In this document: positions 9,619 through 19,459 of the stretch, in pieces | How the letters are laid out: each line of letters opens with the position of its first letter | How positions within the stretch are numbered: the first letter of the stretch is position 1 | Virus record (IMG/VR): IMGVR_UViG_3300049479_000081 | Coordinates: 1 to 23,287 of that record | DNA: 23,287 nt | From: a virus | Reading direction: 5' to 3' (one strand) | Position numbers and translations under genes: made by a program | The notes under the pieces: generated by a model | Told to the model about the DNA's origin: nothing | The model's database searches: none | The model's input: only the letters and a program-made list of their open reading frames with translations

Positions 9619-9620
9619 TC

Positions 9621-10739
9621 ATGACACGCACGTACATCGCCAGAATCGTCGCCGCCGGGGTGCAGGGGCCGTCTGGCGCGGCCGGACCGTCAGGTGTAGC
9701 AGGACCGCAGGGAGCCCCGGGCGCGGACGGCGCCACCGGTCCGCAGGGTCCGGCTGGGCCCGATGGTGCGCAAGGCCCCGCTGGATCGGCCGGGCCTCAA
9801 GGACCACAAGGCGCCCAAGGACCGGCTGGCCCACAGGGAGCACAGGGTCCGCAGGGAATCCAAGGGCCTCCAGGTTCCGATGCAAACGTGACGGCTCACG
9901 AGGGGGCGGCGGATCCACACTCGCAATACGCCATCACGTCGTCAGGCTCGCGCATGCAAACGGCCATCAGTTCTCCGTCTAACGGGTGGGTGCTGACCTA
10001 TAACGGCGTATCCGGGAAATGGGAGGCGCAGGCAGCAACGGGAGGCGTCACTGATCACGGCGCGCTTACCGGGTTGGCAGATGATGACCATGCGCAATAC
10101 GTTTTAGCGAGCGGAGCGCGTGACATTACGGGCAATCAGTCTGTCGTAAGTAATAGCGACTCTGTCAGTTTTGGATTTCTCCTCAAGCGATCTAGGGGTT
10201 CTGCTGGATCAAAATCGATAGTTTCAAATGGCGACGTAATATTTGGTCTTGTCTGGCAAGGATATGACGGGGCTAGCTACATTACTTCGTCAATGATTCG
10301 CGGCTATGTGGATGGAACCCCAGGGCTGAATAACATGCCCGGCAGATTGACGTTCTGGACAGTGCCGGACGGGTCAAACAACCCATTGGAGCGCGTCAGG
10401 ATTGATAGAGTCGGATTTATGTCGATGCAAAGCGGTTCGATTGGCCGCGCGTCGCCAGTGACTAAGACAGTGTCCTTCACAGTAGCGACAACAGAAAACT
10501 GGCTGATCTGCAACGGCGCCGGAACGATCACCGTAACGCTACCGGCTGCGTCTTCTTTCCCAGGCCGCGAAATCATGATCAAGACCATCGCGGCGCAGGC
10601 GGTCAATTCCGCGTCATCGAATGTTATGCCGCTGGCTGGCGGAGCTGCTGGAACCACCATCCTATCGGCGACTGCCGGCAAGTGGGCAACGCTGGTATCT
10701 GACGGCTCAAACTGGATCATCATGCAGGCGGGCGGATGA
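9621..10739 (+). CDS. Collagen-like phage tail fibre protein (372 aa)
   Basis: The ATG at 9621 starts a protein with an N-terminal anchor ([15 protein letters not shown]), then 24 unbroken Gly-X-Y triplets at residues 13-84. A segment with [16 protein letters not shown] at about 143-160 follows; this is a motif seen in many phage fibre proteins near trimerisation regions. The C-terminal half is beta-rich and ends in a domain with [18 protein letters not shown]. Such proteins form trimeric fibres that contact the host. The DNA for residues about 160-290 drops to roughly 45% GC in sampled lines, unlike the GC-rich collagen part, which suggests exchange of the receptor-binding region. It is the last fibre gene and its stop overlaps the first lysis-region gene. 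Confidence 0.8.
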
Positions 10740-15070: not shown

Positions 15071-17119
15071 ATGCCGGATACGACCGCACAGGAGAATTGG
15101 GACCGCTACGAGTACGGCCGCCAGCGGGGGCACATCGAGTACTGCACGCAGGCGCGGCGCTGCGAGGACTTCTACCTTGGCGGAGGGCTGCAGTGGTCGG
15201 AAGACGACATCGCTGCGCTCGGCGATCGCCCGGCATACGAGTTGAACCACATCATGCCGACGGTGAATACCGCCATCGGCCACCAGATCCAGAACCGGCT
15301 CGACCTGGCGTACCAGCCGCGCGGTGGTTTCGCCGACCAGGACAAGGCCGAGATCATGACCAAGGTCGCGCTCTCGATCATCCAGCGGCAGAACTACCAC
15401 TTCAAGGAGACCTGCGTCTTTGGCGACGGCATGATCCAGCAGCGCGGATACTTCGACATCCGAATGGACTACCAGAACAACGTGTTCGGTGATGCGTGCA
15501 TCGACGTGCTCGACACGATGGACGTGATCCCGGATCCGGACGCGAAGACCTATGTTCCAAAAGGATGGGCGGACGTCATCGTCGCGCGCTGGCTGACGCT
15601 CGACGAGATCGAGGATATGTACGGGGTTGAGGCGCGGCGCGCTGCCGAGGCGGCTGGCGACGAAGACGGCGACTTCGGCGAGGAAACAGCGGACGAAGAG
15701 CGAAACAAGTTCGGGACGATTCGCGGTGCCGTATGGAAGGCCTCGTTCGGTGACTCGACGGTGCGCCGCCTGCGGATCATCGATCGGCAGCGCTGGAAGA
15801 ACACCAAGGCCCTGTGCGCCATTTGGCCGACTGGGGAAATCAGGGTGGCCGAAGGCCTTAGCGAGCCGCGCATTGCTGCCATGAAAGAGGCCGGCTGTTA
15901 CTTTATCAAGCGCCGTGTGCGCCGCGTGCAGTGGGTGGTCTCGACGCGTAGCGTCACGCTGTTCGACAAGTGGAGCCCCTACGATCGCTTCACGGTGGTC
16001 CCGTTCTTCGCCTACTTCCGCCGTGGTCGCACGCGCGGCATGGTCGATAACGCCATCAGCCCGCAGGAAATGGTGAACAAGGAGGCCAGCCAGTTCATCC
16101 ACATCCTCAACACGACGGCGAACTCCGGCTACACGGTCGAAGAGAACAGCCTGTCGAACATGACGACCGACGATCTGCGCGAGCAGGGCGCGAACACCGG
16201 GATCGTGATCGAGCACAAGCAGGGCACGCAGCCGCCGAAGAAGATCGAGCCCAACCAGGTGCCACAGGGCGTGGATCGTGCCATCGAGCGCGGCGTGATG
16301 TCGATCAAGGAGATCACGGGAATCTCGGACGCCATGCAGGGGCTGAACGGCCCCGAGGTGTCTGGCATCGCCATCCAGAGCAAGCAGTTCATGGGGCAGC
16401 AGCAATTGGCCGTCCCGCGAGAGAACCTGTCGGCAACCCGGAAGATGGTGGCCGAGCACCTCATGTACCTGATTCAGAACTTCTACGACAGCTATCGGGT
16501 GTTCAAACTGACGGAGCAAGATCCAATCACGGGCGCCGACGTCACGAACGAGTACGAGATCAACGTCGCCCAGCTTCGCGACGACGGCACGCTGACCTAC
16601 CTGAACGACGTCACGACCGGAGAGTACGACTGCGTGGTCTCGGAGCAGCCGACGGCAGTCACGTTCGAAAACGGGCAATTCCAGCAGGCGCTCGAGCTGC
16701 GCAAGTCGAACGTGGCCGTGCCAGACCACGTCGTCATCAAGCACTCGAATCTGTCGGAGAAGCAAGAGATCATCAAGACGATGCAGGAGCAGCAGGGCCG
16801 CGCGAACCCGCTGGACGAGGCCCAGGTCCGGCTGATCGACGCGCAGACCAGGAAGACCAGCGTCGAGTCGGTGAACAAGGCCGTGGAGGCGCTGTTCAGC
16901 GCGACGCAGGCGGCGAATCAAATCGCGCTGATGCCGCAGATCGCGCCGATGGCCGACCAGATGCTGAAATCCGCAGGCTTCGAAGACCAGGATGCCGCGC
17001 CGATCGTTCCCGAGGCGGCGCCCGGCGCGCAAGGCGTTCCGTTGCCGGCGAATACCAACCCGATCACGCCCACAAATCCCGCCGTGGGCATGACTGCAGG
17101 CATTGAAGGCGGGGCTTGA
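15071..17119 (+). CDS. P22-type portal protein (682 aa)
   Basis: ATG at 15071 lies 20 bases after the large terminase stop, with AGGA upstream. The length (682 aa) and sequence fit podovirus-type portals of the P22 group: an N-terminal DRPAYELNHIMPTVNTAIGH wing, the VLDTMDVIPDPDAKTY segment, a central FAYFRRGRTRGMVDNAISPQ, and the helical region (GIAIQSKQFMGQQQLAVP, LSATRKMVAEHLMYLIQNFY) that forms stem and crown. The C-terminal end is helical and Gln/Ala-rich, as expected of a barrel. The portal forms the dodecameric ring at one capsid vertex. Scaffold and coat genes follow as in P22. Confidence 0.9.
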   Translation: MPDTTAQENWDRYEYGRQRGHIEYCTQARRCEDFYLGGGLQWSEDDIAALGDRPAYELNHIMPTVNTAIGHQIQNRLDLAYQPRGGFADQDKAEIMTKVALSIIQRQNYHFKETCVFGDGMIQQRGYFDIRMDYQNNVFGDACIDVLDTMDVIPDPDAKTYVPKGWADVIVARWLTLDEIEDMYGVEARRAAEAAGDEDGDFGEETADEERNKFGTIRGAVWKASFGDSTVRRLRIIDRQRWKNTKALCAIWPTGEIRVAEGLSEPRIAAMKEAGCYFIKRRVRRVQWVVSTRSVTLFDKWSPYDRFTVVPFFAYFRRGRTRGMVDNAISPQEMVNKEASQFIHILNTTANSGYTVEENSLSNMTTDDLREQGANTGIVIEHKQGTQPPKKIEPNQVPQGVDRAIERGVMSIKEITGISDAMQGLNGPEVSGIAIQSKQFMGQQQLAVPRENLSATRKMVAEHLMYLIQNFYDSYRVFKLTEQDPITGADVTNEYEINVAQLRDDGTLTYLNDVTTGEYDCVVSEQPTAVTFENGQFQQALELRKSNVAVPDHVVIKHSNLSEKQEIIKTMQEQQGRANPLDEAQVRLIDAQTRKTSVESVNKAVEALFSATQAANQIALMPQIAPMADQMLKSAGFEDQDAAPIVPEAAPGAQGVPLPANTNPITPTNPAVGMTAGIEGGA

Positions 17120-17135
17120 AAAGGAAGACATGACC

Positions 17136-18095
17136 ATGGCGAGCGAAAACGATACGGCAGTTGAAGAACTGAACCTGGACGACGGCTCCCCGGAAACCGG
17201 GGCCGGATCCAAACACGACGACACACCCCCGGCGAAGACCGAGGATCGCGGCGACGCCTTCACGCCGACCGGCGAGGATGACGACGACGATCCGGCGTCC
17301 AAGACCGACGCCGGAGCCGCCGACGCCGGATCGAAGGCCGAGGATGACGCCGGCACCGGAAAGCGCGGCGTTCCTCCCGAGCGCTTCAACGAAGTGACCC
17401 GGGCCAAGCGCGAGGCCGAGGAAAAGGCTGCGGCTCTGGCCGAAGAGAACGATCGCCTGAAGCAGCAATTGGCGGCATCCGCACAGAAGCCGGCGCCGGC
17501 TGTCGAGCAGAAGCCGGAATCCGATGCGGCCCCAGCCTTCGACATGAAGGCGAAACAGAAGGAAGCGGCCGACGCGCTGCTCGAAGGCGACATGGACAAG
17601 TACGCCGATCTGCAGGCCGAGATCTACGCCCATGTCGCCGATACGGCCGCCGCGAAAGCGATCGAGACGGCGAAGGCGACCAACGACAAGCAGGCCGAGC
17701 AGGACGCCGTGCAGTCCGTCGCGACCGCCGCTGTCGCCAAGTACCCGTTCCTGGACAAAGAGACCGGTGACAAGGAGGCGATCGGCGATGTCGTCGCCTG
17801 GCGTGACCTCTACATCAGCCGAGGCATGCGTGCCAGCGAGGCGCTGCAGAAGGCCGTCGACAAGGTGGCTCCGCTCTACGGTGATGCGAAGCCGACCGAC
17901 GGCGGCGGAATCACCGATCCGCGACCCGCAGCAGCAGCCAAGCGGGCGGCTGCGATGGCGGACGGCCAACCGCCGTTGCCGACCGGCGGGCTTGGCGAGC
18001 GCGCGACCGCCAACCGGATCAACGTCGGCGCCATGTCGGAATCCGAGTTCAAGAACCTGTCGGAAGCCGACAAGAAGCGGCTGCGCGGCGACTGA
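17136..18095 (+). CDS. Scaffolding protein (319 aa)
   Basis: ATG at 17136 is preferred because AAGGAAG (17121-17127) is correctly spaced to it; the in-frame ATG at 17130 is too close. The N-terminal 75 residues are very acidic and disordered (GEDDDDDPAS), then a coiled-coil helix (TRAKREAEEKAAALAEENDR) and a long Ala/Lys/Asp-rich helical middle, and a basic C-terminal end (SESEFKNLSEADKKRLRGD), comparable to the coat-binding C-terminus of P22 scaffold. It sits between portal and coat genes. It would guide coat assembly and leave the prohead. The call is by position and composition. Confidence 0.8.
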   Translation: MASENDTAVEELNLDDGSPETGAGSKHDDTPPAKTEDRGDAFTPTGEDDDDDPASKTDAGAADAGSKAEDDAGTGKRGVPPERFNEVTRAKREAEEKAAALAEENDRLKQQLAASAQKPAPAVEQKPESDAAPAFDMKAKQKEAADALLEGDMDKYADLQAEIYAHVADTAAAKAIETAKATNDKQAEQDAVQSVATAAVAKYPFLDKETGDKEAIGDVVAWRDLYISRGMRASEALQKAVDKVAPLYGDAKPTDGGGITDPRPAAAAKRAAAMADGQPPLPTGGLGERATANRINVGAMSESEFKNLSEADKKRLRGD

Positions 18096-18098
18096 TCC

Positions 18099-18127
18099 TT
18101 GACTTTGTCTGCGCCGAGGTATATCTA
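18099..18127 (+). promoter_or_regulatory. Putative sigma70 promoter for the coat gene
   Basis: TTGACT (18099-18104) is followed after 17 bp by TATCTA (18122-18127) within the sequence TATATCTA. The -35 box is near consensus; the -10 is moderate. It lies right after the scaffold stop and would give extra transcription of the coat gene, which is needed in the highest amount. Visual call only. Confidence 0.4.
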
Positions 18128-18139
18128 GGCGCTATACCA

Positions 18140-18160
18140 CCCGGAGGCCCTGCCTCCGGG
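18140..18160 (+). other. Strong hairpin in the coat leader
   Basis: CCCGGAGGC (18140-18148), CCT loop (18149-18151) and GCCTCCGGG (18152-18160) form a perfect 9-bp GC-rich stem about 12 bp after the candidate promoter. No run of T follows, so it is not a standard terminator. A 5' hairpin that stabilises the coat transcript is possible. Confidence 0.6.
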
Positions 18161-18355
18161 GTTCAGATTCACGGAACGCCACCGACCAAACGGCGGGATC
18201 GCAACCTGCAGCGGGTTCTCGGATACCCCAAACCGTGACATCCGGCGACCGGCCGTAAAGCGGGGTTGCTTGGCTCCTAAAGCCATGACATTCGCACAGC
18301 GCGCGGCGACACAGCGGGCGACCAAACGAACGTCACCTACTCAGGAGCAACCACC

Positions 18356-19459
18356 ATGGCAATGACCAATTTTGCCGCGCTCACGTCGCAACAGAAACTC
18401 GTCTGGTCGCGCGACGTATGGTCCGCGGCCCGCGACATGGCTTTCATCACCCGCTTCACCGGCGGCGAGAATGCCCTCATCCAGCGCGTTACCGAACTCA
18501 CCAAGACCGAGAAAGGCGAGCAGTGCATCATGCACCTCGTCGCCGACCTGGTCGAAGACGGTGTCGTCGGCGACAACCAGCGCGAGGGCAACGAGGAAGC
18601 GATGCAAAGCTACTCGCAGATCATCAACATCGATCTGATCTCGCACCAAGTCCGCAACAAGGGCAAGCTCGCCGAACAGAAGACCGTCATCAAGTTCCGC
18701 GAGCAGGGCCGCGACAAGCTGGCCTACTGGCTGGCGAACCGCATGGACCAATTGGCCTTCCTGACCATGTCGGGCATCGGCTACACGGTCATGAACAACG
18801 GCGCTCTGCGCGACACCAAGTCGCCGTTCCCGACGCTGTCGTTCGCAGCCGACGTCTCCGGCCCGTCGGCGAAGCGTTCGCTGATGTGGGATGGCTCCGC
18901 GCTGACCACCAGCAACACGGCCAGTATCGCCAGCACCTACCTGCCGAACTACAAGATGATCGTGGATGCCGTCGCCTACGCGAAGGAGCACTACGTCAAG
19001 CCCTTGCAGTCCGGCGGCAAGGAGTACTACGTGATGTTCGTGCAGCCCGGCACCCTGGCCCAGCTCAAGAAGGATCAGGACTACCAGCGCGCCGTCACGA
19101 ACCTCGCGCTCAAGGACGGCGAGAAGTCTCCGTGGTTCACCGGCGGCACCGTGACGATCGACGGCGTGGTCCTTCACGAGCACCGTCTGGTCTACAGCAC
19201 GAAGGGTGCGGCGGCCGGCTCGAAGTGGGGCGCGGGCTCGAACATCAACGGCACCCGTTCGCTGCTCTGCGGCGCGCAGGCGCTTGGTCTGGCCGACCTC
19301 GGCGCCCCCGAGTGGGACGAAGAGTACTTCGACTACAAGACGAAGCAGGGCATCAGCATCGACAAGATGTTCGGCCTGCTCAAGCCCAAGTTCTATTCGA
19401 TCTACGACAAGTCGGTCGAGGACTTCGGCATCGTCTCCATCGATCACTACATCGCCTAA
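18356..19459 (+). CDS. Major capsid protein, N4-gp56 family (367 aa)
   Basis: ATG at 18356 has AGGAG at 18343-18347 with good spacing. The protein matches the N4-gp56 family of major capsid proteins: MAMTNFAALTSQQKLVWSRD, TELTKTEKGEQCIMHLVADL, GNEEAMQSYSQIINID, FREQGRDKLAYWLANRMDQ and the SLMWDGSAL segment. It ends with SIDKMFGLLKPKFYS and IVSIDHYIA. The family has an HK97-type fold. It is the building block of the icosahedral head, made after the scaffold. It is one of the best-supported calls in the window. The combination with a P22-type portal is expected in some podovirus-like phages. Confidence 0.92.
   Translation: MAMTNFAALTSQQKLVWSRDVWSAARDMAFITRFTGGENALIQRVTELTKTEKGEQCIMHLVADLVEDGVVGDNQREGNEEAMQSYSQIINIDLISHQVRNKGKLAEQKTVIKFREQGRDKLAYWLANRMDQLAFLTMSGIGYTVMNNGALRDTKSPFPTLSFAADVSGPSAKRSLMWDGSALTTSNTASIASTYLPNYKMIVDAVAYAKEHYVKPLQSGGKEYYVMFVQPGTLAQLKKDQDYQRAVTNLALKDGEKSPWFTGGTVTIDGVVLHEHRLVYSTKGAAAGSKWGAGSNINGTRSLLCGAQALGLADLGAPEWDEEYFDYKTKQGISIDKMFGLLKPKFYSIYDKSVEDFGIVSIDHYIA

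Follow-up and report, generated by a model that had tools for sequence, protein, structure and literature searches.

A predicted chain of tandem pseudoknots in the leader of a phage coat gene

The window analyzed here is the 23,287-base virus record IMGVR_UViG_3300049479_000081 (positions 1 to 23,287), in which the head genes follow the order of small terminase, large terminase, P22-like portal, scaffold-like gene, leader and Phage_capsid_3 coat gene. In addition to its Pfam assignment (Table 1), the coat protein matches the major head protein phrog_334 in PHROG, with an E-value of 6.6e-83. The protein encoded upstream of the leader gave no match in a Pfam and PHROG search, so that its label "scaffold" is given by position only; the scaffold-like proteins at the same place in relatives share about 27-40% identity with it. 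Elsewhere in the window, a putative tail protein (about 9620-9830) contains collagen-like GXX repeats. The 260-bp gene-free gap that had been described between the scaffold-like and coat genes was confirmed.

Table 1. Features of the coat leader and its flanks in the window, and tRNA genes at the corresponding place in AT-rich relatives
Feature	Position	Strand	Evidence or remark
Putative scaffold gene	17103..18095	+	ORF; 5' of leader
9-bp GC-rich hairpin, lineage-specific, outside conserved core	18140..18160	+	Arm match and shuffles
PK1	18193..18238	+	Chain search; helices 1 and 2 covary in relatives
PK1 stem 1 (GCGGG/CCUGC)	18193-18197/18205-18209	+	
PK1 stem 2 (UCGC/GUGA)	18199-18202/18235-18238	+	
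PK2	18243..18263	+	Chain search; covariation in relatives
PK2 stem 1 (CGGC/GCCG)	18243-18246/18252-18255	+	
PK2 stem 2 (CCG/CGG)	18249-18251/18261-18263	+	UAAA in loop 3
PK3	18262..18285	+	Conserved helices 5 and 6; assigned in the window by alignment to relatives
PK3 stem 1 (GGGG/UCCU)	18262-18265/18275-18278	+	Weak in window
PK3 stem 2 (UGGC/GCCA)	18271-18274/18282-18285	+	Intact in window
PK4	18292..18316	+	Chain search; helices 7 (invariant) and 8 (covarying) in relatives
PK4 stem 1 (UCGC/GCGA)	18292-18295/18306-18309	+	
PK4 stem 2 (CGC/GCG)	18302-18304/18314-18316	+	
Spacer, 39 nt, outside conserved structure	18317..18355	+	Sequence
Shine-Dalgarno AGGAG in spacer	18343-18347	+	Sequence
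Major coat protein gene	18356..19459	+	Pfam PF13252 Phage_capsid_3, E 1.4e-40
tRNA-Met gene between scaffold-like gene and leader	L093 2845-2918; L139 1045-1118		
tRNA-Pro and tRNA-His genes between scaffold-like gene and leader	L168 919-995, 1002-1076		
tRNA-Gln gene between scaffold-like gene and leader	L078 2407-2480		

The preliminary description had listed several features in this gap. The perfect 9-bp hairpin is present, with arms at 18140-18148 and 18152-18160 and a 3-nt loop, and is unusual in that a hairpin of equal length arises in 2 of 1000 dinucleotide shuffles. Long-leader relatives have different sequences at this position, some with terminator-like hairpins; a terminator scan of the window hairpin called no terminator and found no T run after it, so that it is not a canonical terminator. 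The exact 10-bp repeat CGACCAAACG does occur at 18183-18192 and 18319-18328, but lies outside the conserved core and is less unusual than the hairpin (15 of 500 dinucleotide shuffles). The imperfect duplication has a period of exactly 50, with 20 of 35 positions identical, but it is weak against shuffles (12 of 200 as good) and falls on the PK1/PK2 and PK3/PK4 junctions; for both reasons we rejected it as an organising feature. The promoter-like pair (TTGACT at 18099-18104 and TATATC at 18120-18125, 15 nt apart) had no match in a consensus scan, and a promoter in the window leader was rejected as no better than shuffles, 48 of 200 of which equal its score with 16-18 nt spacers. Similarly, GCAACC and GGTTGC (18201-18206 and 18264-18269) are complementary as claimed, but the conserved pairing is a different one. 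Folding of the whole leader is moderately better than that of shuffles (z -2.24, 5 of 200). The promoter pair, the duplication, the 10-bp repeat and the alternative pairing are not conserved, whereas four tandem pseudoknots are.

Relatives were collected via the coat protein, comprising 15 genome loci (L001-L015) at 49-76% identity and 80 viral contigs, most of which have a gap of about 150-180 nt of recognisably similar sequence 5' of the coat gene. A structure-free covariance scan of a sequence-only alignment revealed that 7 of the 11 top column pairs fall in five helices of one architecture, namely both stems of PK2, both stems of PK3 and stem 2 of PK1, the remaining four being near neighbours or coat codons. 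The covariation in the sequence-only alignment A1 is 0.292, compared to 0.140 after shuffling (0 of 500). Alignment A3, which contains 47 sequences with the window excluded, was made with model R1, in which each pseudoknot is represented by one stem and the window is one of the 30 training sequences. In A3, pairing holds in 89.1% of cells, changes on both sides are seen in 24 of 34 pairs, and the covariation reaches 0.344, against 0.134 in shuffled (0 of 500) and at most 0.101 in slid versions. Helices 2, 4, 5 and 7 (PK1 stem 2, PK2 stem 2, PK3 stem 1 and PK4 stem 1, respectively) are absent from R1, so that their pairing in A3 cannot come from the model; the first three of them covary. Compensatory changes among the 47 relatives back every helix except the CGC/GCG helix of PK4, which never varies and thus gives no covariation evidence. 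In the helices of PK1 and PK3, G-U pairs outnumber A-C mismatches (35 versus 11), which points to an RNA of the coat-sense strand. Moreover, a chain search of single sequences forms the chain in 40 of the 47 relatives, with 10 of 800 shuffles equalling their own natural sequence. A coding region or conserved peptide was also considered for the leader and rejected, as even the best-populated frame is open across it in at most 29 of 92 relatives. The two outcomes named in the preliminary description as refuting a cis-acting RNA, a lack of covariation or conservation and a conserved peptide, were thus both checked, and neither was found.

From this comparison, positions 18193-18316 of the window very probably form a conserved chain of four consecutive H-type pseudoknots (PK1 to PK4), the multi-pseudoknot RNA of the coat leader. 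Each unit is composed of stem 1, a short loop, stem 2, almost no gap, stem 1', a loop and stem 2'. In the relatives, PK1 has a variable stem, and UCACC in its loop pairs with a downstream GGUGA; PK2 pairs CGYC/GRCG and has a stem 2 resembling GAC/GUC and a loop with UUAAA; PK3 pairs GGCN/NGCC together with UGRC/GYCA; and PK4 has CGC/GCG with a GGC/GCC-like stem 2. The loop residues are conserved as well. Compared to the relatives, which have U-A or C-G at the third pair of PK2 stem 1, the window has G-C; in addition, its PK3 stem 1 competes with PK2 stem 2 for positions 18262-18263.

Search with the covariance model R2, which was built without the window, gave a match at 18185-18320 of the window with a score of 27.5 bits and an E-value of 8.2e-7, followed by a next-best match of 10.7 bits. 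Chance matches reach 25-31 bits in 301 whole genomes, against which 27.5 bits within 23 kb at the expected place is strong. The chain search recovered PK1, PK2 and PK4 of the window as listed in Table 1, with 3 of 150 shuffles scoring equally, and picked another local pairing at PK3. The window copy is a divergent member of the pseudoknot-chain family.

The chain is strictly linked to the coat gene. A pattern scan of viral-contig DNA that was blind to the coat gene yielded 18 matches, 11 of which were confirmed by the model; each of these 11 is placed between the scaffold and coat genes, and the other seven gave no coat match. A single bacterial family supplied 301 genomes, and the six matches of at least 80 bits in them all adjoin the coat gene; the weak ones (21-31 bits) are not beside it. 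Every checked match of at least 80 bits, in viral contigs and in the 301 related bacterial genomes, is located directly 5' of the coat gene. Further copies at other sites in host or phage genomes were rejected, the matches being only at chance level (about 9-31 bits) and those checked being without a coat gene. Two such model matches of 25-31 bits (L131 2978-3096, minus strand, and L127 1501-1610) have no nearby coat gene and were taken as chance.

More distant phages have similar chains. AT-rich relatives retain PK1-PK3-like chains, for example L080, L085, L088 and L094, for which none of 30 shuffles was as good. A search of the leaders of the KPP25-like sister lineage with R2 did not find the element; PK2-PK4-like folds are seen there by eye, by chain search and, in one clade, by covariation. 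In the chain search 84 of 620 shuffles were as good, indicating that not every KPP25-like leader fits. Covariation in the 12 leaders of that clade (0.334 versus 0.147, 0 of 500) supports PK2 and PK3 and, with less certainty, PK4; PK2 stem 2 is 97% paired, and 6 of 6 pairs have changed on both sides. A -10 box of the TAnnAT type ends 7-13 nt 5' of PK2, the first pseudoknot, in 11 of these 12 leaders. When two promoter hexamers are scored, eight leaders score at least 9 out of 12, as do about 9% of shuffles, and six score 10-11 out of 12, as do about 1%. The placement of the -10 box suggests that the coat message should start at or near PK2 in this clade. In two distant phages the distance from the tRNA end to PK2 is about 4 nt (L093/L139, tRNA-Met) and about 8 nt (L078, tRNA-Gln), such that tRNA processing would also leave PK2 at a new 5' end. 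The coat of Aeromonas phage phiA008 had no relatives in the viral contigs, and its own leader fits PK3 and PK4.

In the window lineage, the chain starts at a median of 15 nt 3' of the upstream stop codon, and the end of PK4 is separated from the AUG by a median of 33 nt (range 25-46 in 47 relatives). The Shine-Dalgarno sequence and the AUG lie outside the chain, which leaves the ribosome site open. In the window, PK1 is 97 nt from the upstream stop codon, and no convincing promoter was seen. A terminator search between the chain and the coat gene found none. Terminator-like hairpins with T runs are present between scaffold and leader in several relatives (L099 5810-5840, L010, L019 and L176), suggesting that the coat may be a separate transcript there.

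The genes for coat, portal and scaffold protein are neighbours in tailed phages, and coat is needed in much greater amounts than the other two; the means of setting this ratio is, to our knowledge, mostly unknown. Our leading, though tentative, reading of the sequence data is that the chain may act in cis as a 5' element within the coat mRNA, shielding its 5' end while translation stays open. In the coat message, the RNA of 18193-18316 would make up the folded upstream portion, and the Shine-Dalgarno sequence and the AUG would lie outside it in the next 40 nt or so. This RNA would reach the 5' end of the message by a promoter, by processing or by its position just after the upstream stop codon. 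At or near this end, the compact chain would block 5'-end-dependent decay and upstream interference, with the coat ribosome site remaining open, and would raise or fix the yield of coat relative to the scaffold-like protein of the same operon. A base-paired 5' end slows RNase E (PMC3997798). The leader RNA probably helps the virus to produce a large amount of coat protein. At the level of sequence, covariation, strict coat linkage and the lack of a frame kept open uphold the earlier proposal of a cis-acting RNA, whereas for its further proposal, the tuning of coat production, the inferred role of the chain is to stabilise the mRNA or to give a high output of coat. The uncovered ribosome site speaks against a simple on/off switch. 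A simple hairpin can already protect a 5' end, so that a set of four pseudoknots whose loops are conserved hints at a role beyond shielding. For the window itself, the lack of a convincing promoter and the 97 nt between the upstream stop codon and PK1 also weigh against this reading.

The T4 protein gp32 represses its own translation through its leader pseudoknot, and with this precedent protein-binding autoregulation is the main rival to a 5' shield. A phage protein, most simply the coat or scaffold-like protein, would bind the pseudoknots and repress or activate coat translation. We consider this somewhat unlikely, weighing the strict association with one gene pair, the conserved loop residues and the order of pseudoknot and then spacer with ribosome site, as in T4 gene 32 (PMC535899, PMC3014915), against the fact that vertical inheritance alone could produce the same gene association. 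A further point against such an operator comes from the T4/RB69 gene 32 spacer, which has UUAAA/UAAA repeats, whereas the spacers of the window and 47 relatives have no such repeats. In a more specific and rather less likely form, the chain might be a coat-specific sensor, in which free coat or scaffold protein binds and coat synthesis is matched to capsid assembly; if true, such a sensor would operate in a large group of tailed phages.

Less likely again is a pure translation-initiation element, which would insulate coat initiation from the preceding cistron or serve as a ribosome standby platform, leaving decay unchanged. The short median distances (15 and 33 nt) do place the chain near ribosomes that end the upstream gene or start the coat, but insulation leaves unexplained the sister-phage transcripts predicted to start from PK2, without an upstream cistron. 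Pseudoknots are a common ligand-binding fold, by which a small molecule or factor could switch the chain to hide the ribosome site or form a terminator; such a riboswitch or attenuator is very improbable, given the Shine-Dalgarno sequence outside the chain, the lack of a terminator between the chain and the coat gene and the lack of an Rfam riboswitch match. A packaging-related element had also been suggested in the preliminary description and gained no support; it could be RNA or DNA, for instance an RNA of the pRNA type. Its one favourable point is the structural-gene neighbourhood; the chain is tied to the coat gene rather than placed beside the terminase in Acidovorax phage AP1 or the window, its excess of G-U over A-C points to coat-sense RNA, and no Rfam packaging RNA matched, making this reading more improbable still. 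That the interval is a product of chance, unremarkable intergenic sequence or a small coding region can practically be dismissed, because the covariation is far above controls in A1, A3 and the KPP25-like clade and no frame is widely kept open, although single-sequence folding of the window is only moderately unusual.

Pseudoknot leaders as a kind are already known. The T4/RB69 gene 32 leader resembles the present one in being a phage mRNA leader with an H-type pseudoknot 5' of a less structured ribosome-site stretch, and one feature of the gene 32 type, a pseudoknot 5' of the translation start in an mRNA leader, is found in the window leader. They differ in that gene 32 encodes a single-stranded DNA-binding protein and has one pseudoknot, compared to three to four 5' of a coat gene here. 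Chains of pseudoknots occur in tmRNA and plant-virus 3' UTRs; these are likewise consecutive and of the H-type, but differ in position and in partners. The T4 pseudoknot is 67 nt upstream of the initiation codon, according to a review (PMC3014915). Like the 5' stabilisers of bacterial mRNAs of the ompA and papA type, the present element leaves the ribosome site open and, in the sister phages, is predicted to place its structure at the transcript 5' end or very close to it; however, those stabilisers are simple stem-loops, whereas the present element consists of tandem pseudoknots with conserved loops and is mostly intercistronic in the window lineage.

When the window and 11 relatives were compared with the Rfam 15 families, nothing reached the gathering score, and the leaders of the window and L030 had no match at E up to 5, so that a known RNA family was rejected as the identity of the leader. 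In the literature searched, no paper on such a coat-leader element was found. What is new is that three to four pseudoknots form a chain and that, throughout a large group of phages, this chain is linked to a capsid gene. As a widespread RNA family outside Rfam, present in dozens of phages and prophages, it offers clear mutants to make, and the chain could supply compact parts for mRNA stabilisation or translation control.

Individual leaders carry additional elements. In L078 and L143/L144, an HNH-endonuclease-like gene is located between the PK2-PK3-like leader and the coat gene and looks like a homing endonuclease insertion; similar genes are found 5' of the coat gene in L165 and L254. The leader of Burkholderia phage BcepMigl, a distant relative, has no clear chain, and a CsrA-like regulator gene is annotated immediately 5' of its coat gene (L102 4663-4857), hinting at another post-transcriptional control of coat. 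In L025 (about 2810-2850), loop 3 of PK1 has an insertion with a Shine-Dalgarno-like site and a short ORF (ATG GTT CGC TAA).
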